Assembly (NCBI RefSeq): GCF_006716095.1
Contig: NZ_VFOK01000001.1
Location: 1,457,375-1,521,374 of the forward strand
DNA from: Barrientosiimonas humi
Lineage (GTDB): Bacteria; Actinomycetota; Actinomycetes; Actinomycetales; Dermatophilaceae
DNA: 64,000 bases
Reading direction: 5' to 3'
How positions within the stretch are numbered: position 1 is the first letter of the stretch; every line of letters starts with the position of its first letter. The translations under genes were made by a program, and so were the position numbers. This document shows, piece by piece, positions 832 through 60,416 of the stretch. Below the pieces are notes generated by a model that was not told the origin of the DNA, made no database searches, and saw only the letters and a program-made list of their open reading frames with translations.

Positions 832-1043
832 GCGGCGACGACCTGGTCTGCAGCGCCAAGGGCTGCCGGGCCGAGGCGGTGTGGGCGGTGCGCTGGAACA
901 ACCCGACCCTGCACACACCCGAGCGCCGCAAGGTCTGGCTCGCCTGCGACCCCCACCGCGAGACGCTGTGGGAGTTCCTGTCGCTGCGCGGGTTCGCGCG
1001 CGACGTCGTGCCGGTCGACCGGCTCGAGCCCACCGACGGCTGA
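828..1043 (+). CDS. small conserved actinobacterial protein with a zinc-ribbon-like Cys/His pattern
   Basis: A 71-residue protein that starts with a GTG overlapping the stop of the DUF3099 gene by four bases. Cys8, Cys13, Cys40 and His43 (CSAKGC and LACDPH) could bind one metal ion. The remainder is rich in aromatic and charged residues (ETLWEFLSLRGF), with no membrane segment or signal peptide. I do not recognise a characterised family. The tight coupling to the DUF3099 gene suggests a shared role, which is unproven. Confidence 0.65.
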   Translation: MSGDDLVCSAKGCRAEAVWAVRWNNPTLHTPERRKVWLACDPHRETLWEFLSLRGFARDVVPVDRLEPTDG

Positions 1044-1053
1044 GCACCACGCC

Positions 1054-1127
1054 CACGCTGATCGAACACGCCGGCACCCCCACGCTGATCGAGTAGGCCG
1101 GAGCGCTAGCGGTGGCCGTATCGAGAT
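1054..1127. repeat. 27-bp partial tandem repeat and hairpin-prone element in a convergent gap
   Basis: CACGCTGATCGA occurs at 1054-1065 and again at 1081-1092, a period of 27 bp. The second copy continues into GATCGAGTAGGCC and later GGCCGTATCGAGATC, which can fold back on itself. It lies between the ends of two convergent genes, so it may act as a terminator or be a dispersed intergenic repeat. Confidence 0.5.
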
Positions 1128-1133
1128 CCCCCC

Positions 1134-2165
1134 TCAGCCGCCGATCGCCGACATCGGCCGGTCGGGCTGCACGAACGACTCGTCGTCGATGCCGTGGCCG
1201 GCGCGCTTGCGCGCCATCTCGCCGGTGATCGCCGCGGCGATCGTCTCGTCGTCGGCCCCGCCGCGCAGCAGCGCGCGCAGGTCGCCCTCGCCGCGGGCGA
1301 ACAGGCAGTTGCGCACCTGCCCGTCGGCGGTCAGCCGGACGCGGTCGCACGCGCCGCAGAACGGCCGCGTCACGCTGGCAATGATCCCGACCGTCGCGGG
1401 CCCGCCGTCGACGAGGAACCGCTCGGCCGGCGCGCTCCCGCGGGAGGCGTCGGGCAGCGGAGTGAGGGTGAACCGCTCCGCGAGCCGCTCGTGCAGCTCG
1501 TCGACGGTGATCATCTCGTCGCGGGTCCACGCGTGCTGCGCGTCGAGCGGCATCTGCTCGATGAACCGCAGCTCGTAGCCGCGGTCGAGGCACCACTGCA
1601 GCAGCTCGGCGACCCGGTGCTCGTTGACGCCGCGCATCGCGACGGAGTTGACCTTGACCGGCGTGAGGCCGGCGTCGGCCGCGGCCTTCAGACCTGCCTC
1701 GACGTCGGCGAGGCGGTCGCGCAGGGTCAGCTGCTTGAACGTGTCGCGGTCGACGGTGTCGAGCGAGACGTTGACCCGGTCCAGCCCCGCCTCGGCGAGG
1801 GGCGCGGCCAGCCGGTCCAGGCCGATGCCGTTGCTGGTGAGCGCCATCTGGGGGCGCGGCTCGAGCGCCGCCACCCGGCGTACGACATCGGTCAGCGACC
1901 GGCGCAGCAGCGGCTCACCGCCGGTGAAGCGCACCTGGCGCACGCCGAGGTCGACGAAGATGCCGATGAGGCGCACCAGCTCGTCGTCGGTGAGCATCTC
2001 GGGCTTGGCCAGCCAGGGCAGACCCTCGGCGGGCATGCAGTACGTGCAGCGCAGGTTGCAGCGGTCGGTCACCGAGACGCGCAGGTCACGGCCGACGCGC
2101 CCGTAGCGGTCGACCAGGCGCGCATCGGCACGCGGGCGCGGCATCGGGAGGCTGGTCCGGCTCAT
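1134..2165 (-). CDS. moaA: GTP 3',8-cyclase MoaA (molybdopterin biosynthesis)
   Basis: Radical-SAM enzyme that, with MoaC, converts GTP to cyclic pyranopterin monophosphate, the first step of molybdenum cofactor synthesis in the cytoplasm. The N-terminal cluster motif is CNLRCTYC (Cys36, Cys40, Cys43). A C-terminal second cluster is shown by FCGACDRVRLT and a later Cys in RNCLF. The protein ends in the GG tail needed by MoaA. Its 343 residues are close to the usual length. The ATG start follows a TANNNT box by six bases, so the mRNA is probably leaderless. It is divergent from the SURF1 gene. No other moa gene lies in the window. Confidence 0.95.
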   Translation of the reverse strand: MSRTSLPMPRPRADARLVDRYGRVGRDLRVSVTDRCNLRCTYCMPAEGLPWLAKPEMLTDDELVRLIGIFVDLGVRQVRFTGGEPLLRRSLTDVVRRVAALEPRPQMALTSNGIGLDRLAAPLAEAGLDRVNVSLDTVDRDTFKQLTLRDRLADVEAGLKAAADAGLTPVKVNSVAMRGVNEHRVAELLQWCLDRGYELRFIEQMPLDAQHAWTRDEMITVDELHERLAERFTLTPLPDASRGSAPAERFLVDGGPATVGIIASVTRPFCGACDRVRLTADGQVRNCLFARGEGDLRALLRGGADDETIAAAITGEMARKRAGHGIDDESFVQPDRPMSAIGG

Positions 2166-9051: not shown

Positions 9052-9070
9052 CCCCACGCCCCTGCCTCAT

Positions 9071-9156
9071 ATCGTTCACCGGTGCACGAAATGAGGGAGG
9101 CAACCCCGGGAATCCCGCGGGTTGCCTCCCCCAGATCGTTCACTGGCGCACGAAAT
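9071..9156. repeat. two copies of the ATCGTNC...GCACGAAATG repeat (family R1)
   Basis: ATCGTTCACCGGTGCACGAA starts at 9071 and ATCGTTCACTGGCGCACGAA at 9135, 64 bp apart. The first contains the palindrome CACCGGTG inside TCGT...ACGA. These are diverged relatives of the 62-bp tandem repeats at 18631 and 56472. All three arrays fill gaps between convergent genes. Confidence 0.7.
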
Positions 9157-9199
9157 GCAGCCGCCGGGCGACGGAACCTGGTCAGGCCCGGACGCCGCC

Positions 9200-17694: not shown

Positions 17695-18594
17695 GTGCCC
17701 GACTCCCCCGCCAACCCGTGGCTGCGCCGACTGCTGATCGTCAACCTCGTCGCCGAGGTCGGCATCGTGGTCACCGGCGGCCTGGTGCGCCTCACCGGCT
17801 CGGGCCTGGGCTGCCCGACCTGGCCGCGCTGCACCGCGGACTCCTTCGTCCCGGTGGCCGGGCAGGAGGAGGGCTTCCGCAAGTTCATCGAGTTCGGCAA
17901 CCGCACCCTCACCGGCGTCGTGTCGATCGCGGCGCTGCTGGTGATCGTCGCGATCTGGAAGCTGGCGCCCGAGCGAGCAGCGTTGAAGCGCTTGGCCTTC
18001 CTGCCGCTGATCGGGGTGGGGCTGCAGGCCGTCGTCGGCGGCATCACCGTGCTCACCGGGCTCAGCCCGACCACCGTCGCGCTGCACTTCCTGGCCTCGA
18101 TGGTGCTGATCTGGTTGTCGACCTACCTGCTCTACCGGGTGACGCAGGAGGGTGACGAGCCGCCGACCAGCGACGTGCACCCCGCGATCCGCTCCGTCGC
18201 CTACGCCGTGAGCGCGGTGCTGGCGGTCGTGCTCGCGCTCGGCACGGTGGTCACCGGCAGCGGCCCGCACTCCGGCGACGCCGACACCCCACGCTTCGGG
18301 TTCGACCCGCGCAGCGTGTCCTGGCTGCACGCCGACGCGGTGATGCTGTTCGTCGGCCTGGTCGTCGCGGTGCTCGTGGCGACGCATGCCACCGGGGCCA
18401 GCGAGCGAGTACGCCGGGCCTGGCTGGTGGTCCTCGGCCTCACCCTGTTCCAGGGCGGGCTCGGCTACCTGCAGTACTTCACCGGCATCCCGTGGCTGCT
18501 CGTGCTGGTGCACATGCTCGCCGCGTCGCTGCTGGTCGTCGCGGTCACCTGGGCGGTCCTCACGCTGCGCAGCCGGGACCTCGTCACGGCCTGA
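17695..18594 (+). CDS. ctaA: heme a synthase CtaA (COX15 family)
   Basis: Integral membrane enzyme of 299 residues with eight predicted helices that oxidises the methyl group of heme o to give heme a for cytochrome c oxidase. The N-terminal GGLVRLTGSGLGCPTWPRC has the conserved Arg and Cys pair. Heme-ligand histidines are seen in VALHFLAS, SWLHADAV and LVLVHMLAA. CtaB, the heme o synthase that supplies the substrate, is encoded convergently 226 bases away. Confidence 0.95.
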   Translation: MPDSPANPWLRRLLIVNLVAEVGIVVTGGLVRLTGSGLGCPTWPRCTADSFVPVAGQEEGFRKFIEFGNRTLTGVVSIAALLVIVAIWKLAPERAALKRLAFLPLIGVGLQAVVGGITVLTGLSPTTVALHFLASMVLIWLSTYLLYRVTQEGDEPPTSDVHPAIRSVAYAVSAVLAVVLALGTVVTGSGPHSGDADTPRFGFDPRSVSWLHADAVMLFVGLVVAVLVATHATGASERVRRAWLVVLGLTLFQGGLGYLQYFTGIPWLLVLVHMLAASLLVVAVTWAVLTLRSRDLVTA

Positions 18595-18630
18595 CCCGGC
18601 CGGCCCCGCACCCGGGCGGCGCTCGCCGCA

Positions 18631-18776
18631 GATCGTGCGTTGACGTACGGGATGCCGAGCCCGCCCGCGGAATCCTGGGCCTCGCCCGCTCAGATCGTGC
18701 GTTGACGCACGAAATGCCGAGCCCGCCCGCGGAATCCCGGGCCTCCCCCGCTCAGATCGTGCGTTGACGTACGAAG
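18631..18776. repeat. 62-bp tandem repeat array, three cores (family R1)
   Basis: GATCGTGCGTTGACGTACG starts at 18631, and its copies start at 18693 and 18755, exactly 62 bp apart each time. The intervening text (GCCGAGCCCGCCCGCGGAAT and following) is also conserved, so it is a true tandem repeat and not a CRISPR. In the 18693 copy TCGTGCG and CGCACGA form a perfect 7-bp stem. It fills the gap between convergent ctaA and ctaB. Confidence 0.85.
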
Positions 18777-18820
18777 TGTGGCCGTGAGTTTGGACCGTGC
18801 CGGAGCCGCGCGGGGCTGGG

Positions 18821-19801
18821 TCAGCCGAGCGGCAGGTGCCACAGCGGGTCGATCGCGACCCCGAGGAAGACCAGCGTCAGGTAGCTGATCGAGAAGTGGA
18901 ACAGGCGCATGGGGCGCATGCCCGCGCCCTCGGGGTGCCCGGCGGCGCGCTGCAGCCGGTGCGACTCGAGCAGGAAGACGCCGCCGCTCACGACCGCGAC
19001 GACGGTGTAGACCCAGCCCATCCCGCCGACCGGGATCAGGGCGAGCGAGGTGAGCACGGTGGCCCAGGCGTACAGCACGACCTGGCGGGCGACCTGCTGC
19101 CGCTCGGCGACGACGGGCAGCATCGGGACGCCGGCGGCGGCGTAGTCGTCGCGGAAGCGCATCGACAGCGGCCAGTAGTGCGGCGGGGTCCAGAAGAAGA
19201 CCACGAGGAACAGCACGACCGCCGCCCAGCTGAGCGAGTTCGTGACCGCGGACCAGCCGATCAGCACCGGCATGCAGCCGGCGACCCCGCCCCAGACGAT
19301 GTTCTGGGACGTGCGGCGCTTGAGCAGCATCGTGTAGAAGCCGACGTACAGCGCGATGGCACCGAGCGAGAGCATCGCCGAGAGCCAGTTGACCAGCAGC
19401 CCGAGCCACAGCACCGACGCGACGCCGAGCACCAGCCCGAAGGTCAGCGCGGCCCGGGGGGTGATCGCGCCGGTGACCAGCGGTCGCCCCTCGGTGCGGT
19501 GCATGAGCCGGTCGATGTCGCGGTCGAGGTAGCAGTTGAGCGTGTTGGCCGACCCGGCCGACAGGCTGCCGCCGATGAGCGTGGCGAGGATCAGCCACAG
19601 GCTCGGCACCCCGCGCTCGGCGAGGAACATCACCGGGAAGGTGGTGACGAGCAGCAGCTCGATGATGCGGGGCTTGGTGAGCGAGACGTAGTCGGCAACC
19701 ACCTGGCGCGCACTGCGCTGCGGGGCTCCCGGCGACGCGTGCGACGTCCCCGCGGCAGGGATCGGGCGCGGCTCGGTGGCGGTCACGGCATCCTTCGTCA
19801 C
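18821..19801 (-). CDS. ctaB: heme o synthase CtaB (protoheme IX farnesyltransferase)
   Basis: UbiA-type prenyltransferase of 326 residues that adds a farnesyl chain to protoheme. The Asp-rich motif is NCYLDRDID in helix 2 and the second loop motif is [19 protein letters not shown]. About eight to nine helices are visible, starting at [16 protein letters not shown] used the GTG at 19801; a GTG at 19786, preceded by GAAGGA, is also possible. The open frame upstream has no family similarity and is antisense to tkt. Confidence 0.93.
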
Positions 19802-32564: not shown

Positions 32565-32636
32565 CGCATGAAACCCGGTTACGTGGCTTTGACCTCAATG
32601 CATCGGGGTCAAAGCCACGTAACCCGGTTTCATGCG
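32565..32636. repeat. long palindrome, 30-bp arms (family P, copy A)
   Basis: Arms 32565-32594 and 32607-32636 are reverse complements with one mismatch and a 12-base loop. The ends CATGAAAC...GTTTCATG and the block ACGTAACCCGG match the palindrome at 59311. Inner bases differ between copies, but both arms change together (GTGGC with GCCAC here). It lies in the 323-base gap between gap and the whiA end. Confidence 0.85.
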
Positions 32637-32660
32637 TTCGGACCCGACAGGCCGGAGCAC

Positions 32661-32751
32661 GGCTCGGCGACGATGCCGGCAGGCCGGAGCGTGCGACGGG
32701 CGGCCGGAGCGTGCGACGGGCGGCCGGAGGAGGAGCCGAGGCAGAAAGGAA
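32661..32751. repeat. stop-adjacent intergenic element (family R2, copy 2) with a 20-bp duplication
   Basis: GGCTCGGCGACGATGCCGG through GGAGCCGAGGCAGAAAGGA matches the element at 9200-9270. It ends right against the whiA stop. Inside, GGCCGGAGCGTGCGACGGG is repeated with a 20-bp period (32682 and 32702). With the palindrome it fills the space between gap and whiA; I see no gene there. Confidence 0.65.
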
Positions 32752-33729
32752 TCAGTCCAGCATCTCGGGGGTGAGGTTGGCGTTGGTGCCGGGGACGCCC
32801 TGCTCCTCGGCGCGCTTGTCGGCCATGGCGAGGAGGCGGCGGATGCGTCCGGCGACGGCGTCCTTGGTCATCGGCGGGTCGGCGAGCTGGCCGAGCTCTT
32901 CGAGGCTGGCCTGCTTGTGCTCGGTGCGCAGCCGCCCGGCCTCGGCGAGGTGGTCGGGGACCTCGTCGCCGAGGATCTCCAGCGCGCGCTCGACCCGGGA
33001 GCCGGCGGCGACGGCGGCGCGGGCGGAGCGGCGCAGGTTGGCGTCGTCGAAGTTCGCGAGCCGGTTGGCGGTGGCGCGCACCTCGCGGCGCATGCGGCGC
33101 TCCTCCCACTCCAGCACGGCCTCGTGCGAACCGAGCCGGGTGAGGATCGCACTGATGGCGTCGCCGTCGCGGATCACGACGCGGTCGACCCCGCGCACCT
33201 CGCGGGCCTTGGCCTGCACGCCGAGCCGGCGCGCCGCGCCGACGAGGGCGAGGGCGACCTCGGGTCCGGGGCTGGTGACCTCGAGCGAGCTGGACCGGCC
33301 CGGCTCGGTGAGCGAACCGTGCGCCAGGAACGCGCCGCGCCAGGCGGCCTCGGCGTCGCAGGCCGCGCCCCGCACGACCTTGGCAGGGAGGCCGCGCACC
33401 GGACGTCCGCTGCCGTCGACGAGACCGGTCTGCCGGGCGAGGGTCTCACCCTCGCCGGCGACGCGGACGACGTAGCGGGTGCTCTTGCGGATGCCCGCGC
33501 CGGACAGCACCATCAGCTCGCTCTCGTGGCCGTAGACCTCGGCGATGTGGTGACGCAGCCGACGCGCGGCGCTCGCGGTGTCGAGCTCGGCCTCGACGAC
33601 GATGCGCCCGCCGACGATGTGCAGGCCCCCGGCGAACCGGAGCATGGCGGCGATCTCGGCTTTGCGGCAGCAGGTCTTGGTGATCGGGAACCTGCTCAGC
33701 TCGTCCTTGACCTTCGCCGTCATGGCCAT
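32752..33729 (-). CDS. whiA: WhiA, sporulation/cell-division regulator
   Basis: A 325-residue DNA-binding protein with an N-terminal LAGLIDADG-like fold ([23 protein letters not shown] onwards in the family) and a C-terminal helix-turn-helix ([19 protein letters not shown]). In Streptomyces it works with WhiB in sporulation septation; non-sporulating actinobacteria keep it too. I took the ATG at 33729 because GAGAGG is well spaced; an ATG three codons earlier exists. It ends the uvrC-rapZ-yvcK-whiA unit. Confidence 0.95.
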
Positions 33730-33813
33730 GCGGCTCATCCTCTCACTGCGGTGTGGTGGAAGTGCGTCGGCCGGACGACGCGACGAGGCAGCGTAACGCC
33801 GTCTCCTGGAAGG

Positions 33814-34758
33814 TCATTCCATGATGTCGCGGTAGGCCGCGGCGAGCCGGAGGGTGTCGTGCGTGCCGGGGTGGTCGGGGTCGGCGACGGCCGAGAGCGA
33901 GACCTCCGCGCCCATCTCCTGGGCCCGGGCGCGCAAACCGTCGAGACCGTCGCCGACGGCGCTCGGGTCGGCGAGGACGACGTCCAGGTGCAGGTCGGCG
34001 GCGTGCTCGGTGAGCACCTGCAGGTGGTCGGCGGGCGTGAAGCCTCGGCTCTCGCCGCTGTCGAGCACCATGTTGAGGGTGAGCAGCCGGCGGGCGCGGG
34101 TGTGCACGAGCGCCTCGCGCAGCTCGGGCACCAGCAGGTGCGGCATGACCGAGGTGAACCAGGAGCCCGGTCCGAGGATGACCCAGTCGGCGTCGTAGAT
34201 CGCCTGCACGGCCTCGGCGCACGCGGCCGGCGGGTCGGGGTCGAGGTGGACGCCCAGCACCTGCCCGGGGCTGGTCGCGAGCCGCACCTGGCCGACCACC
34301 TGCTCGACCTCGTCGGGGCGCTCGGGGTCGTCGCCGCGCACGGTGCCGCCGATGCGCACCGGCTCGATGGCCATGGGCAGCACCCGGCCCCGCGCCCCCA
34401 GCAGCCGCCCGACCAGGTCGAGCCCGGCCACGGGGTCGCCGAGCAGGTCCCACAGCGAGGCGATGATCAGGTTGCCCAGCGCGTGACCGCCGAGCGGCCC
34501 GTCGCCCGGGAAGCGGTGCTGCAGGGCGTCGCGCCACTGCAGCCCCCAGTCGGTCGTGCTGCACAGCGCGGCCAGCGCCATGCGCAGGTCGCCCGGCGGG
34601 AGGATGTCGAACTCCTCGCGCAGCCGGCCGCTGGAGCCGCCGTCGTCGGCGACGGTCACGACCGCGGTGATGCCGTCGGTGACGTGCTGGAGCGCCTGGA
34701 GAGAGGCGTACAGACCGTGGCCGCCGCCGAGCGCGGCCACCTGGAGCCGGCGGGTCAT
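33814..34758 (-). CDS. YvcK/CofD-like gluconeogenesis factor
   Basis: A 314-residue protein of the YvcK family. The N-terminal ALGGGHGLYASLQAL and VVTVADDGGSSGRLR form the nucleotide-sugar pocket. Relatives bind UDP-GlcNAc and are needed for growth on gluconeogenic carbon and for cell-wall homeostasis. The ATG overlaps the rapZ stop by four bases. Confidence 0.93.
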   Translation of the reverse strand: MTRRLQVAALGGGHGLYASLQALQHVTDGITAVVTVADDGGSSGRLREEFDILPPGDLRMALAALCSTTDWGLQWRDALQHRFPGDGPLGGHALGNLIIASLWDLLGDPVAGLDLVGRLLGARGRVLPMAIEPVRIGGTVRGDDPERPDEVEQVVGQVRLATSPGQVLGVHLDPDPPAACAEAVQAIYDADWVILGPGSWFTSVMPHLLVPELREALVHTRARRLLTLNMVLDSGESRGFTPADHLQVLTEHAADLHLDVVLADPSAVGDGLDGLRARAQEMGAEVSLSAVADPDHPGTHDTLRLAAAYRDIME

Positions 34759-35648
34759 TCGCGCCCCAGATCGCGGTGGACGACCACCGTGCCGATGTCG
34801 GGACTCTGGATGCGCCGGCCGAGCTCCTCGGCCATCGCCACCGAGCGGTGCTTGCCGCCGGTGCAGCCGACGGCGAGCGTGACGTAGCTGCGGCCCTCGC
34901 GCAGGTAGCCGGCGGTGACCGGCTCGAGCAGGTCCAGGACCCGGTCGACGAACTCCTGGGCGCCCGGCTGCGCGAGCACGAAGTCGGCGACCACGGCGTC
35001 CTTGCCGGTGAACGGGCGCAGCGCGGGGTCCCAGTACGGGTTGGGCAGGAACCGCATGTCGAAGACCATGTCGGCGTCGAGGGGCAGGCCGTACTTGAAG
35101 CCGAACGACATCACGGCGATGCGCAGCGGCACCCGGTCGTCGCCGCCGACCAGCTGCTGGATCTTGGCGGTGAGCTGGTGCACGTTGAGACCGCTGGTGT
35201 CGATCAGCAGGTCGGCGTTGGCGCGCAGGTCGCGCAGCATCTCGCGCTCGCGGATGATGCCGTCGAGCATCCGGCCGTCGTCCTGCAGCGGGTGCGGCCG
35301 GCGCACCGACTCGAAGCGGCGCACGAGCGACTCGTCGGTGGCGTCGACGAAGACCAGGGTCGGCAGGTAGCCGTGGTCGCGCAGCCGGTCGAGGCCGTCG
35401 CGGAAGTCGGTGAAGAACGCGCGGCTGCGCACGTCGACCACCGCGGCCAGCCGCAGGCCGTCCTCGCCGACGTCGTCGCGCTCGAGCAGCTCGGCCATGG
35501 GCACGAGCATCTGCGGGGGGAGGTTGTCGATGACGTACCAGCCGCTGTCCTCGAGCACGTTGGCCACGGTCGAGCGGCCGGCACCGCTCATCCCGGTGAC
35601 GATGAGCAGCTCGCGGGTGCGCGCCTCGGGCGGCTCGGTCTCGTCCAT
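34755..35648 (-). CDS. rapZ: RapZ-like nucleotide-binding protein
   Basis: A 297-residue P-loop protein (family YvcJ/RapZ). Walker A is TGMSGAGRST, with Arg for the usual Lys as often seen in actinobacteria. The C-terminal domain has SFGFKYGLPLDADMVFDMRFLPNP and VGCTGGKHRSVAM. In E. coli RapZ directs RNase E to small RNAs; the actinobacterial role is unclear. It lies between uvrC and yvcK. Confidence 0.93.
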   Translation of the reverse strand: MDETEPPEARTRELLIVTGMSGAGRSTVANVLEDSGWYVIDNLPPQMLVPMAELLERDDVGEDGLRLAAVVDVRSRAFFTDFRDGLDRLRDHGYLPTLVFVDATDESLVRRFESVRRPHPLQDDGRMLDGIIREREMLRDLRANADLLIDTSGLNVHQLTAKIQQLVGGDDRVPLRIAVMSFGFKYGLPLDADMVFDMRFLPNPYWDPALRPFTGKDAVVADFVLAQPGAQEFVDRVLDLLEPVTAGYLREGRSYVTLAVGCTGGKHRSVAMAEELGRRIQSPDIGTVVVHRDLGRE

Positions 35649-55680: not shown

Positions 55681-56430
55681 ATGACTCGACGCATCGTCAT
55701 CACCGGCGGCGGCACCGGCATCGGCCGGGCCATCGCGACCCGCCTGCTCGCCGAGGAGCCCGAGCTGGTGCTGGTGGGCCGCCGCGAGAGCGTGCTGCAG
55801 GAGGCCGCCGACGAGCTGCGCGGCCTCGACGAGACCGCGCAGGTCAGCACGCTCGCGTGCGACCTCGCCGACCCCGACCAGGTGCAGCAGCTCAGCGACA
55901 CGCTGCACGACGGCCCGCAGATCGACGTGTTCGTGGCCAACGCCGGCGGCAACTACGGCCTCGGCGCCGGCAGCCTGGCGGAGGTGGCCGAGGCGTGGCG
56001 GCGCGACTTCGACGGCAACGTGCTGTCGGCGGTGCTGCCCGTGCACGCCCTGCTCGACCACGTCGCCCGCCCCGGCGGCCGGATCGTCGCGATGTCCTCG
56101 ATCGCCGCGCTGCGCGGCTCGGGCGCGTACGGCGCGGCCAAGGCCGCCGTCAACGCGTGGGTGCTCAGCCTCGCCAGCGAGGTCGCCGCCGACGGGATCA
56201 CCGTCAACGCGGTCGCCCCCGGCTTCGTGCCCGACACCGACTTCTGGCGGCAGCGCATCGAGGCCGACCCGGGCATCGTCGAGAACCGCACCGCCCCGAT
56301 CCCGATGGGCCGCCCCGGCACCCCCGACGAGATCGCCGAGGCCGTCGCCTACCTCGCCTCCCCCGACGCCGGCTGGACCACCGGCCAGATCCTGCAGGTC
56401 AACGGCGGCACCCTGCTCGGCCGCGGCTGA
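55681..56430 (+). CDS. short-chain dehydrogenase/reductase
   Basis: A 249-residue SDR. Cofactor loop TGGGTGIGRA (residues 8-17), NAG motif VFVANAGGN, catalytic Ser in AMSSIAALRG, and Tyr/Lys in GAYGAAKAAV. The ending LASPDAGWTTGQILQVNGG is the classical SDR pattern of FabG-like enzymes. GGAG precedes the ATG. It is divergent from coaE; the substrate is not identifiable. Confidence 0.88.
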   Translation: MTRRIVITGGGTGIGRAIATRLLAEEPELVLVGRRESVLQEAADELRGLDETAQVSTLACDLADPDQVQQLSDTLHDGPQIDVFVANAGGNYGLGAGSLAEVAEAWRRDFDGNVLSAVLPVHALLDHVARPGGRIVAMSSIAALRGSGAYGAAKAAVNAWVLSLASEVAADGITVNAVAPGFVPDTDFWRQRIEADPGIVENRTAPIPMGRPGTPDEIAEAVAYLASPDAGWTTGQILQVNGGTLLGRG

Positions 56431-56471
56431 CACGGCACGCGCCGCGCCGACGTCCGGGCGAGCCCTGCAGC

Positions 56472-56700
56472 TCGTACGACAACGCACGATCTGCGCCGCG
56501 CTCCCCCGAGATCCCGGGCCCCCTCCCGCACTTCGTACGACAACGCACGATCTGCGCTGCGCTCGCCCGAGATCCCGGGCCCACCTCCCGCACTTCGTAC
56601 GACAACGCACGATCTGCGCTGCGCTCGCCCGAGATCCCGGGCCCACCTCCCGCACTTCGTACGACAACGCACGATCTGCGCTGCGCTCGCCCGGTCCTGG
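56472..56700. repeat. 62-bp tandem repeat array, four cores (family R1, inverted)
   Basis: TCGTACGACAACGCACGATC recurs at 56472, 56533, 56595 and 56657 (spacing 61, 62, 62). The intervening text with CGAGATCCCGGGCC is also conserved. It is the reverse complement of the family at 18631. It fills most of the 350-base gap between the SDR gene and convergent rpsA. Confidence 0.85.
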
Positions 56701-56708
56701 GCAGACGA

Positions 56709-56742
56709 AAGGCCCCGGTCACCTCGCGGTGACCGGGGCCTT
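56709..56742. terminator. bidirectional terminator before the rpsA end
   Basis: AAGGCCCCGGTCACC (56709-56723) and its exact complement (56728-56742) form a 15-bp stem with the loop TCGC. It ends in TT on the plus strand and in TTTC on the minus strand, and sits between convergent genes. Confidence 0.88.
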
Positions 56743-58489: not shown

Positions 58490-59305
58490 ATGAGCGAGGA
58501 CCCGCAGTGGTACGGCATCGCCCGCCGAGCGGTGGAGCAGCCCGAGTCGATCCTCGCGAACCGCCGGTGGTGGGACGCCGAGGCCTCGGCCTACTACCTC
58601 GAACACGGTGACTTCCTCGGGGATTCCGAGCTGGTCTGGGGACCCGAGGGGATCACCGAGCGCGAGCTGCGGCTGCTCGGCGACGTCGCCGGTCGCGACG
58701 TGCTGGAGATCGGCGCCGGCGCGGCCCAGGGCAGCCGCTACCTGAGCACGCAGGGCGCGCGCGTCGTCGCCAGCGACCTGTCCGCCGGCATGCTCGGCCA
58801 GGCGCGCACCGTCGACCGCGACCGGCGCCTGACCCCGCTCCCCCTCGTGCAGTGCGACGGGGCCGCGCTCCCCTTCGCCGACGCCGCGTTCGACGTCGTC
58901 TTCACGGCGTACGGCGTGTTCCCGTTCGTCGCCGACTCGGCGGGTGCGCTGCGCGAGTGCGCGCGGGTGCTGCGCCCGGGCGGGCTGCTGGCGTTCTCGA
59001 CCACCCACCCGATCCGCTGGGCCTTCCCCGACGACCCCGGCGAGCCGGGACTGCAGGTGCGCTCGTCGTACTTCGACACCCGCCCGTACGTCGAGGAGGA
59101 CGACGCGGGCCGGGTCACCTACGTCGAGCACCACCGCACGCTGGGCGAGCGGGTGCGCGAGATCGTCGCCGCCGGGCTGCACCTGGTCGACGTCGTGGAG
59201 CCGGAGTGGCCCGAGCGCAACGCGGAGGTGTGGGGCGGCTGGAGCCCGACGCGCGGGCGGCTGATCCCGGGCACCGCGATCTTCCTGGCCCGGCGCCCCC
59301 GCTGA
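58490..59305 (+). CDS. class I SAM-dependent methyltransferase
   Basis: A 271-residue methyltransferase. The SAM site is VLEIGAGAAQGSRYL (about residues 70-84), then VVASDLSAGML, and motif DVVFTAYGVFPFV. The end VWGGWSPTRGRLIPGTAIFL is conserved in actinobacterial relatives of unknown substrate. The ATG lies 203 bases from divergent rpsA. A palindrome follows the stop. Confidence 0.87.
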   Translation: MSEDPQWYGIARRAVEQPESILANRRWWDAEASAYYLEHGDFLGDSELVWGPEGITERELRLLGDVAGRDVLEIGAGAAQGSRYLSTQGARVVASDLSAGMLGQARTVDRDRRLTPLPLVQCDGAALPFADAAFDVVFTAYGVFPFVADSAGALRECARVLRPGGLLAFSTTHPIRWAFPDDPGEPGLQVRSSYFDTRPYVEEDDAGRVTYVEHHRTLGERVREIVAAGLHLVDVVEPEWPERNAEVWGGWSPTRGRLIPGTAIFLARRPR

Positions 59306-59310
59306 CCCCG

Positions 59311-59378
59311 CATGAAACCGGGTTACGTGCGTTTGACCCGACTCGATTGGGGTCAAACGCACGTAACCCGGTTTCATG
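59311..59378. repeat. long perfect palindrome, 29-bp arms (family P, copy B)
   Basis: Arms 59311-59339 and 59350-59378 are exact reverse complements with a 10-base loop. It shares its ends and the ACGTAACCCGG block with the copy at 32565, but the inner stem reads GTGCG with CGCAC. It lies between convergent genes and may also end transcription. Confidence 0.9.
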
Positions 59379-59429
59379 CCCGGAAGGGGGGGCGGGTGGG
59401 CCCGGACGTTGCGGGAGCGGGCGGGGGGG

Positions 59430-60416
59430 TCAGCCGTTGAGGATGCGCTCGGTGGCGGCGGCGCTCAGCGGCGGCGCGCCGTTGGCCTGGTCGCGGAACC
59501 AGCCGACGGTCCACTTCAGCGCGTCCTCGATGCCGACCCGCGGGGACCAGCCGAGCACCCGCTGCGCGAGCAGCGTGTCGGGCTGGCGCACCGTCGGGTC
59601 GTCGACCGGGCGCTCGATGAAGGTGATCGGCGAGTCGGACTCGGCGATCCGCACGATCCACTCGGCCAGCTCGCGCATCGACAGCTCGTAGGGGTTGCCG
59701 ATGTTGATCGGGCCGGGGTGGCTGGCGTCGAGCATGCGCAGCACGCCCTCGACCAGGTCGTCGACGTAGCAGATCGAGCGGGTCTGCGACCCGTCGCCGC
59801 TCACCGTGACCGGCTCGCCGGCCAGCGCCTGCCGCACGAAGTTGGGGATCGCGCGGCCGTCGTCGGGCCGCATGCGCGGACCGAAGGTGTTGAAGATCCG
59901 CACGATGCCGGTGTCGACGCCGTGCGCCTGGCGGTAGGCCAGGGTCAGCGCCTCGGCGTAGCGCTTGGCCTCGTCGTAGACCCCGCGCGGGCCGACCGGG
60001 TTGACGTTGCCCCAGTAGGTCTCCGGCTGCGGGTGCACCTCGGGGTCGCCGTAGACCTCGGAGGTCGAGGCGAGCACCAGCCGCGCACCCTTCTCGCGGG
60101 CCAGCTCCAGCGCGTGCAGCGTGCCGTGCGAGCCCACGGTGAGGGTCTCGATCGGCATCCGCAGGTAGTCGACGGGCGACGCGGGGCTGGCGAAGTGCAG
60201 CACCGCGTCGACCGGCCCGTCGACGGTGAACGGCAGCGAGACGTCGGCCTCGCGCAGCTCGAACGACGGGTCGTGGCGCAGGTGCTCGACGTTGCCCGCC
60301 GAACCGGTGCAGAAGTTGTCGAGCGCGACCACCGCGTCACCGCGGCGGAGCAGCTCCTCGCACAGGTGCGAGCCGAGGAAGCCCGCGCCACCCGTGACGA
60401 CGACCCGGCGGGTCAC
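59430..60416 (-). CDS. UDP-glucuronate decarboxylase-like sugar nucleotide SDR
   Basis: A 328-residue extended SDR. NAD site VTGGAGFLGSHLCEEL, catalytic YDEAKRYAEAL (YxxxK), and Thr/Ser in LASTSEVYGDP. The blocks LHFASPASPVDY and GDGSQTRSICYVDDLVEG are typical of UXS enzymes, which make UDP-xylose from UDP-glucuronate. Other sugar epimerases are possible. The GTG overlaps the end of the DUF3068 gene. Confidence 0.87.
   Translation of the reverse strand: MTRRVVVTGGAGFLGSHLCEELLRRGDAVVALDNFCTGSAGNVEHLRHDPSFELREADVSLPFTVDGPVDAVLHFASPASPVDYLRMPIETLTVGSHGTLHALELAREKGARLVLASTSEVYGDPEVHPQPETYWGNVNPVGPRGVYDEAKRYAEALTLAYRQAHGVDTGIVRIFNTFGPRMRPDDGRAIPNFVRQALAGEPVTVSGDGSQTRSICYVDDLVEGVLRMLDASHPGPINIGNPYELSMRELAEWIVRIAESDSPITFIERPVDDPTVRQPDTLLAQRVLGWSPRVGIEDALKWTVGWFRDQANGAPPLSAAATERILNG

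Follow-up and report, generated by a model that had tools for sequence, protein, structure and literature searches.

REP/BIME-like palindromic repeats in the gaps of Barrientosiimonas humi: a family private to this genome among those sampled

The GC-rich genome of Barrientosiimonas humi (3.65 Mb, two contigs) contains a family of short palindromic repeats that is dispersed over unlinked loci and placed mostly between convergent genes, and that is private to this genome among those sampled; since the genus is sampled by this genome alone, 'private' here means to the species or genus, as sampled. We consider it somewhat more probable than the other accounts taken together that this is a REP/BIME-like, non-autonomous, non-coding repeat that spread recently in one actinobacterial lineage. 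The dispersal, the absence of the repeat from six orthologous gaps of the nearest sampled genus and the likeness of units within arrays fit spreading followed by tandem growth.

The window arrays and the anatomy of the unit

The stretch analysed, here called the window, is the 64 kb at C1:1457375-1521374 (GC 72%). Nine copies in three arrays had been predicted there, and all nine cores were found again, with starts differing by 1-2 bases from the earlier coordinates and with agreeing intervals: 62/62 in the main array, 61/62/62 in the third array and 64 in the diverged pair (Table 1). Tandem Repeats Finder, run on the window, returned the two main arrays with a period of 62 and with 92% and 98% matches. 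When one mismatch was allowed, a loose form of the core pattern matched 18 times in the window, i.e., the nine cores on both strands, against a mean of 5.0 and a maximum of 15 in shuffled sequence (0 of 100 shuffles reached 18). All three gaps holding these arrays are convergent, as had been claimed, the left gene of the third (ending at 56430) having been placed by hand from the sequence. The main array lies between genes that we take, from the appearance of their proteins, to be ctaA and ctaB. Rfam gave nothing at the gathering threshold in the window.

Table 1. Repeat copies of the three window arrays and the genes flanking the main array (window positions; cores are the 18-bp centres of P1)
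Feature	Positions	Strand	Basis
P1 copy, diverged pair, type B, TCGTTCACCGGTGCACGA, core 9072-9089	9065..9096	+	sequence
P2 in linker of diverged pair; entire linker is a hairpin, 12-bp arms here	9104..9117	+	sequence
P1 copy, diverged pair, type B, core 9136-9153	9129..9160	+	sequence
ctaA (COX15-like), left neighbour of main array	17695..18594	+	ORF, translation, homologues
P1 copy 1, main (ctaA/ctaB-gap) array, type A, core 18633-18650	18626..18657	+	sequence, Tandem Repeats Finder
P2, linker 1 (18655-18690) of main array	18666..18679	+	sequence
P1 copy 2, main array, core 18695-18712	18688..18719	+	sequence, Tandem Repeats Finder
P2, linker 2 (18717-18752) of main array	18728..18741	+	sequence
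P1 copy 3, main array, core 18757-18774	18750..18781	+	sequence, Tandem Repeats Finder
ctaB (protohaem IX farnesyltransferase-like), right neighbour of main array	18821..19786	-	translation, homologues
P1, third array, core 56472-56489, last in the array's own direction	56465..56496	-	sequence, Tandem Repeats Finder
P2, third array	56505..56518	-	sequence
P1, third array, core 56533-56550	56526..56557	-	sequence
P2, third array	56566..56579	-	sequence
P1, third array, core 56595-56612	56588..56619	-	sequence
P2, third array	56628..56641	-	sequence
P1, third array, core 56657-56674, first in the array's own direction	56650..56681	-	sequence

The window has other repeats and hairpins of its own. 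Between the third array and the gene to its right is a strong, separate hairpin at 56709-56742 (AAGGCCCCGGTCACC...GGTGACCGGGGCCTT); within the convergent gap 59305-59430, a long inverted repeat at 59310-59380, GCATGAAACCGGGTTACGTGCGTTTGACCC with its complement, makes a hairpin of unusual length; and a perfect 20-bp tandem repeat of 2.4 copies occurs at 32682-32729, near the start of the ORF listed as 32632-34887.

Two parts of the repeat unit are conserved, as is their spacing, and the intervening text drifts. The first, P1, is an imperfect palindrome of 32 bp with consensus CCnCAGATCGTGCGnnGACGTACGAAATGCGG, and its two principal subfamilies are A (TCGTGCGNNNNCGTACGA) and B (TCGTTCACNNGTGMACGA with its near variants); P2, in the linker, is a GC-rich palindrome around CCCCGGAATCCCGGG. 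Genome-wide, all 49 P1-P1 intervals fall within 61-64 bp (62 in 32 cases, 64 in seven, 63 in six and 61 in four), and in 44 of the 49 linkers the centre of P2 follows that of the P1 before it by 31 or 32 bp, the same distance separating it from the following P1 centre in 46 of 49. Linkers of equal length are 91% identical within arrays (15 pairs) vs. 61% between arrays (523 pairs), a difference that argues for tandem growth of the arrays. The linkers thus differ from the unrelated spacers of CRISPR, having P2 in common besides this likeness within arrays, and the distinction from CRISPR made by the original prediction stands.

Imperfect pairing within P1 is itself conserved. In an alignment (A2) of 70 distinct sequences from the 80 cores found in co-oriented arrays (it omits both cores of the inverted locus L055 and three single P1s), none of the 70 is a perfect palindrome across the 12-bp stem, and each has 1-5 non-Watson-Crick pairs, mostly at 6/27, 7/26 and 12/21. 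The hairpin arms had been said to vary together, and stem pairs altered on both sides do occur, chiefly at 14/19, 15/18 and 12/21 (pair 14/19 is GC in 37 and AT in 22 of the 70 distinct P1s; pair 15/18 is CG in 28 and TA in 24). Cells changed on both sides numbered 56 vs. 27.7 in shuffled alignments and the covariation score was 0.137 vs. 0.087 (0 of 500 shuffles as high for either), the share of paired cells was above all 500 shuffles, and these three measures also exceeded slid controls; the remaining two of the five measures were not above shuffles (both-side-changed pairs, 4 vs. 3.9; further pair types, 8 vs. 10.0). The changes largely follow the A/B split and so represent few independent events, and related sequences may beat such shuffles even without structure. 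A preceding alignment, A1, mostly of type A (36 of 38 rows, without L055 and the forward reading of L038), scored below its shuffles (0.057 vs. 0.068), with its second and third helices out of register; its helix-1 rows alone are meaningful, and it was replaced by A2. The linker arms outside P2 gave no covariation in 27 of the 38 rows (the 36-nt linkers, with L055, the L038 forward reading and one identical row removed), and linker hairpins were rejected on this ground.

Extent in the genome and placement among genes

When the whole genome was searched with the unit we obtained 35 loci holding 85 P1 copies, three of which loci the original prediction had covered. Co-oriented P1s form 31 arrays (17 with two, 10 with three and 4 with four; 80 cores and 49 linkers), and the other four loci are L055, with two inverted P1s, and the single P1s L042, L056 and the weaker L120. 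The profile used (R1) was made from 36 two-core units and gave 131 matches at E <= 1 in its own genome, reaching 88.9 bits; many of these matches overlap or represent both strands of one copy, and the loci were then read individually. Genome-wide, TCGTNCRNNGRCGNACGA had 29 matches vs. none for its reversed control. The right foot of P1, ACGAAATGCRG, occurs 65 times in the genome, 64 of them within the 35 loci and the remaining one intragenic, so that the list of loci is probably near complete; the same genome-wide search yielded no longer or autonomous element with a P1 half. Candidates dropped along the way were L121 and C1:3157116 (E 0.59 in the profile search), as chance matches, and C1:881948 (L058), where no P1 was seen on reading.

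The loci are dispersed across both contigs and the two subfamilies are common to them. Multi-copy loci read head to tail in 31 of 32 cases, L055 being the inverted one; for type B copies, which are nearly symmetric, the direction read depends on slight asymmetries (e.g., at L038, L116 and L117). Just past the last P1 of L039, by a few bases (G000:C1 about 211940-211975), stand at least 30 consecutive C, a possible hypermutable tract or assembly artefact, and at L048 (about 2573-2612) an extra P2-like stretch follows the last P1 without a further P1, perhaps a decayed unit.

All 35 loci are intergenic; one core shares 14 bp with the end of a gene. Copies at random within genes had been named as the observation that would speak against a role at gene ends, and the copies are not so distributed. 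The claim that copies lie between convergent genes extends to 25 of the 35 loci, with 6 co-directional and 4 divergent; the raw tally, from a gene caller that had 31 long window ORFs as its training set, was 24, 6 and 5. Gene calls were corrected in three places: besides the hand-placed gene of the third window array, the left neighbour of L056 was recognised as tRNA-Ser, so that this locus is convergent, and the 19-aa ORF called to the right of L117 as spurious, so that this one is co-directional. Counting by the automatic labels, after filtering on score, gave 23 convergent gaps among 32 with arrays and 14 among 155 others from those stretches (binomial P = 1.2e-17 when gaps are counted and 9.4e-14 when intergenic bases are). 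In the 24 gaps automatically called convergent, the nearer stop codon is a median of about 24 bp from the P1 end, distances for L110-L119 being a few bases short as the ends there are profile-match ends. Among the divergent loci, L045 adjoins what we take by eye to be a tyrosine integrase gene, and L053 adjoins a region that scores weakly as coding and includes an HTH-like ORF; at both, islands may have landed beside arrays.

The same convergent excess (23 of 32 vs. 14 of 155) would be expected were the arrays bidirectional RNA 3'-end signals, whether through factor-dependent or U-tract-less termination or as exonuclease barriers, selected at convergent genes. Of 10 stretches folded as RNA, nine have z from -3.1 to -6.9 (0 or 1 of 200 shuffles as good) and the tenth has z -2.25 (4 of 200), so that the arrays may act at RNA 3' ends, but a palindrome in a direct repeat folds well by construction, and folding energies are therefore weak evidence here. 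By a hairpin threshold that we set ourselves, 10 of the 23 convergent array gaps have no other strong hairpin, and 13 have one. A terminator array was among the interpretations first offered; in its classical intrinsic form it gained no support from the three window gaps scanned, where the combination of a GC hairpin and a T-run was not found. With 4 of the 35 loci divergent, no covariation in the linker arms, and three orthologous gaps of 9-13 bp in which the relative G019 (below) manages without arrays, we judge selection as RNA 3'-end signals to be unlikely as the explanation of the family.

Other genomes, orthologous gaps and recent gain

Searches beyond this genome returned no array. Among 185 other genomes of the same family, R1 gave weak matches in 10 (18-20.5 bits, E 0.002-0.01), at 11 loci, none with an array; at up to seven mismatches 4 of the 11 show isolated P1-like sites (the best with five mismatches) and no close pair. 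R1 had no match at E <= 1e-4 in other genomes of the order (395 searched) or of the phylum (also 395), in sets that overlap each other and the family set and in large searches that filter more strictly, losing weak matches. The exact pattern, scanned over 84,980 species (a scan that may omit records of the own genome), had three lone matches, in MAGs of a planctomycete, an Oscillospiraceae bacterium and Henriciella, with no second P1 near any of them. The exact pattern had no match in IMG/VR, nor did the main array by blastn against plasmid and phage collections. Relatives were thus searched with the unit as the original prediction had envisaged, at one genome per species, and no copies appeared in any other sampled species; this argues against a long-conserved role at gene ends, though not against a recent one.

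Several apparent resemblances in relatives were set aside. In 32 of 116 relatives a loose core pattern of 13 bases had 1-5 matches each, taken as chance, vs. 48 here, and TCGTGCGTGCCCGAACGA in G064 proved to be four copies of one longer identical stretch, unrelated to the family. The ctaA/ctaB gaps of G038 and G049 contain tandem repeats of their own; in exact-pattern searches of eight genomes these were confined to that gap plus one match in G019, and we therefore gave up the notion of a separate dispersed family of this kind in every genus.

Privacy bears on the protein-binding array, another of the interpretations first offered, here taken to mean that a dimeric chromosome-organising protein or gyrase would recognise P1 and P2 in duplex DNA. 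A spacing of 31 bp, about three helical turns, would set the sites on one face of the helix, in keeping with the near-fixed intervals (49 of 49 at 61-64 bp, P1 to P2 mostly 31 or 32 bp, with the text between drifting) and with the likeness of the P1 halves, and passages of PMC2817692 describe binding of BIMEs and REPs by gyrase, IHF and DNA polymerase I. However, a repeat missing from sampled relatives would call for a protein, or a specificity of that protein, that is private as well, the copies are at 3' ends and not at promoters, and the conserved mispairs render the P1 halves unlike. We place duplex binding below a spreading repeat because the family is private, and regard it as quite improbable.

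The nearest genome by CtaA among 58 other family members searched is G019 (78% identity), which we compared over 2.0 Mb of about 3.6 Mb. Six convergent pairs with arrays here are kept in G019, with gaps (here/G019) of 108/9, 226/13, 148/11, 231/66, 194/81 and 183/1228 bp; five of the six are longer here (108-231 bp vs. 9-81 bp), and in the reverse case the longer G019 gap starts with repeats of its own. For the G019 gaps we prolonged tblastn matches as far as the stop codon and took distances from these, as the gene caller suits this lower-GC genome poorly. No P1 within four mismatches was found in the 2.0 Mb, and R1 at E <= 0.01 had no match in the entire G019 genome. The array being absent from G019 and five of six gaps shorter there, the family was probably gained recently, as far as can be read from sequence comparison. 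At ctaA/ctaB itself we compared 30 loci: our own, 22 convergent ones and 7 with no ctaB found in the stretch covered. Among the 22, 8 gaps measure 9-84 bp, 11 measure 179-1325 bp and have other content, some of it gene-like, two pairs overlap and one gap is N-filled; with 11 of 22 relatives having a long gap, the ancestral gap length is not fixed by that locus alone.

Of the interpretations first offered, then, a self-spreading element gains support from the 35 dispersed loci, the lack of copies in sampled relatives and the shorter G019 gaps at five of six pairs. These data also bear on an origin with no mobility at all, whereby old scattered palindromes were enlarged by local replication slippage and homogenised by gene conversion. 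It accounts for units being more alike within than between arrays, but not for two subfamilies common to 35 loci on both contigs, nor for orthologous G019 gaps of 9-13 bp that hold no seed sequence, and we think it very improbable.

G019 and the own genome have other repeat words, separate from P1. CTGATCGAGTAG, GTATCGAGACC and GGTCTCGATACG are common to both, occurring here at window positions 1043-1134 and beside arrays L112 and L118; counts for GGTCTCGATACG are 7 over 227 kb of the own genome and 40 over the 2.0 Mb of G019, against none for its reversed control. G019 has dense words of its own, ACGCCGGTCGAG (176 times in 2.0 Mb) and CTTGTCGAGACC (61 times; reversed control 0), which lie on its contig C4 (L158-L177 and L184-L263), including the gap orthologous to the L111 array.

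Known repeat families and a model for the spread

REPs offer the closest comparison. According to passages of PMC3733652, most are found between convergent or co-directional genes, and in two genomes they are often at most 20 bp from both 3' ends; some families are species-specific; and the CGTC REPs are without a known dedicated transposase. Passages of PMC2817692 treat BIMEs as REP clusters linked to RAYTs, describe IS200/IS605-type transposases as recognising imperfect palindromes that fold as stem-loops, and give REP copies as usually more than 100. A term search of the main texts of PMC3733652 and PMC2817692 found no mention of Actinobacteria, and in open-licence literature we found no published description of such repeats in that phylum. 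The family shares with REPs and BIMEs an imperfect palindrome of 20-40 bp (P1 has 32 bp) that is extragenic, dispersed, often clustered and mostly near 3' ends, between convergent or co-directional genes, and in some cases species-specific. It differs in having no GTAG or CGTC tag at either P1 end in the 70 rows of A2 (the right end is mostly CRG, the left CNG, CT or similar), in its 85 copies vs. the usual number given in PMC2817692, and in orientation, neighbours in BIMEs being inverted (HH/TT) where ours are head to tail in nearly all multi-copy loci. A search for PF01797 (Y1/RAYT transposase) was positive in 5 of 14 control genomes and found no match to this enzyme family in the own genome. 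Since form and placement are shared but tag, enzyme and orientation are not, we describe the family as REP/BIME-like in its working and not as a member.

Under the spreading-repeat reading, the unit that moves would be a P1-P2-P1 composite, mobilised in trans by an enzyme that reads the P1 hairpin in single-stranded DNA; the conserved mispairs cause its two strands to fold differently. Arrays would then enlarge by head-to-tail tandem duplication, to give the alternation of P1 and P2 mostly every 31 bp. Copies may persist mainly in 3'-3' gaps because insertion there would disrupt neither gene nor promoter, and the hairpins, once in a gap, may shape RNA 3' ends. The 31 arrays gave no sign of target-site duplication above shuffled pairing (mean 2.19 bases vs. 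2.24, with 308 of 500 shuffles as high), a difference from MITEs; neither this nor the PF01797 search points to a mobiliser, which may have been lost. A narrower form of the model, in which a REP-like mobile repeat born in one actinobacterial lineage is moved by an enzyme other than Y1/RAYT that reads the mispaired single-stranded hairpin and inserts with strong preference between convergent stop codons, we offer as a tentative and rather doubtful proposal. The CGTC REPs described in PMC3733652 pose the same puzzle of spread without a transposase. A REP-like family in a genome where no RAYT was found, and whose gain can be compared with orthologous gaps, makes the mechanism of spread testable, and likewise the question of 3'-end placement, i.e., selection against other sites vs. 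a role in ending transcripts.

Other repeat families resemble this one in part. As set out in passages of PMC3898611, neisserial dRS3 is a 20-bp repeat with almost 700 occurrences, alternating with RS spacer families of 30-160 bp and serving as a target of phage integration; it shares with our family a short inverted-repeat element with a variable centre that alternates with spacers in intergenic arrays. Here the copies are far fewer, the spacer has near-fixed length and a conserved central palindrome, and no phage link was seen. The ATTCCC(N8)GGGAAT palindrome and diverse RS spacers of NIME/dRS3 are not matched by the P1 consensus. By description, the arrays may also be likened to STAR and MIRU-type repeats, which are intergenic arrays of direct repeats of some tens of bases.
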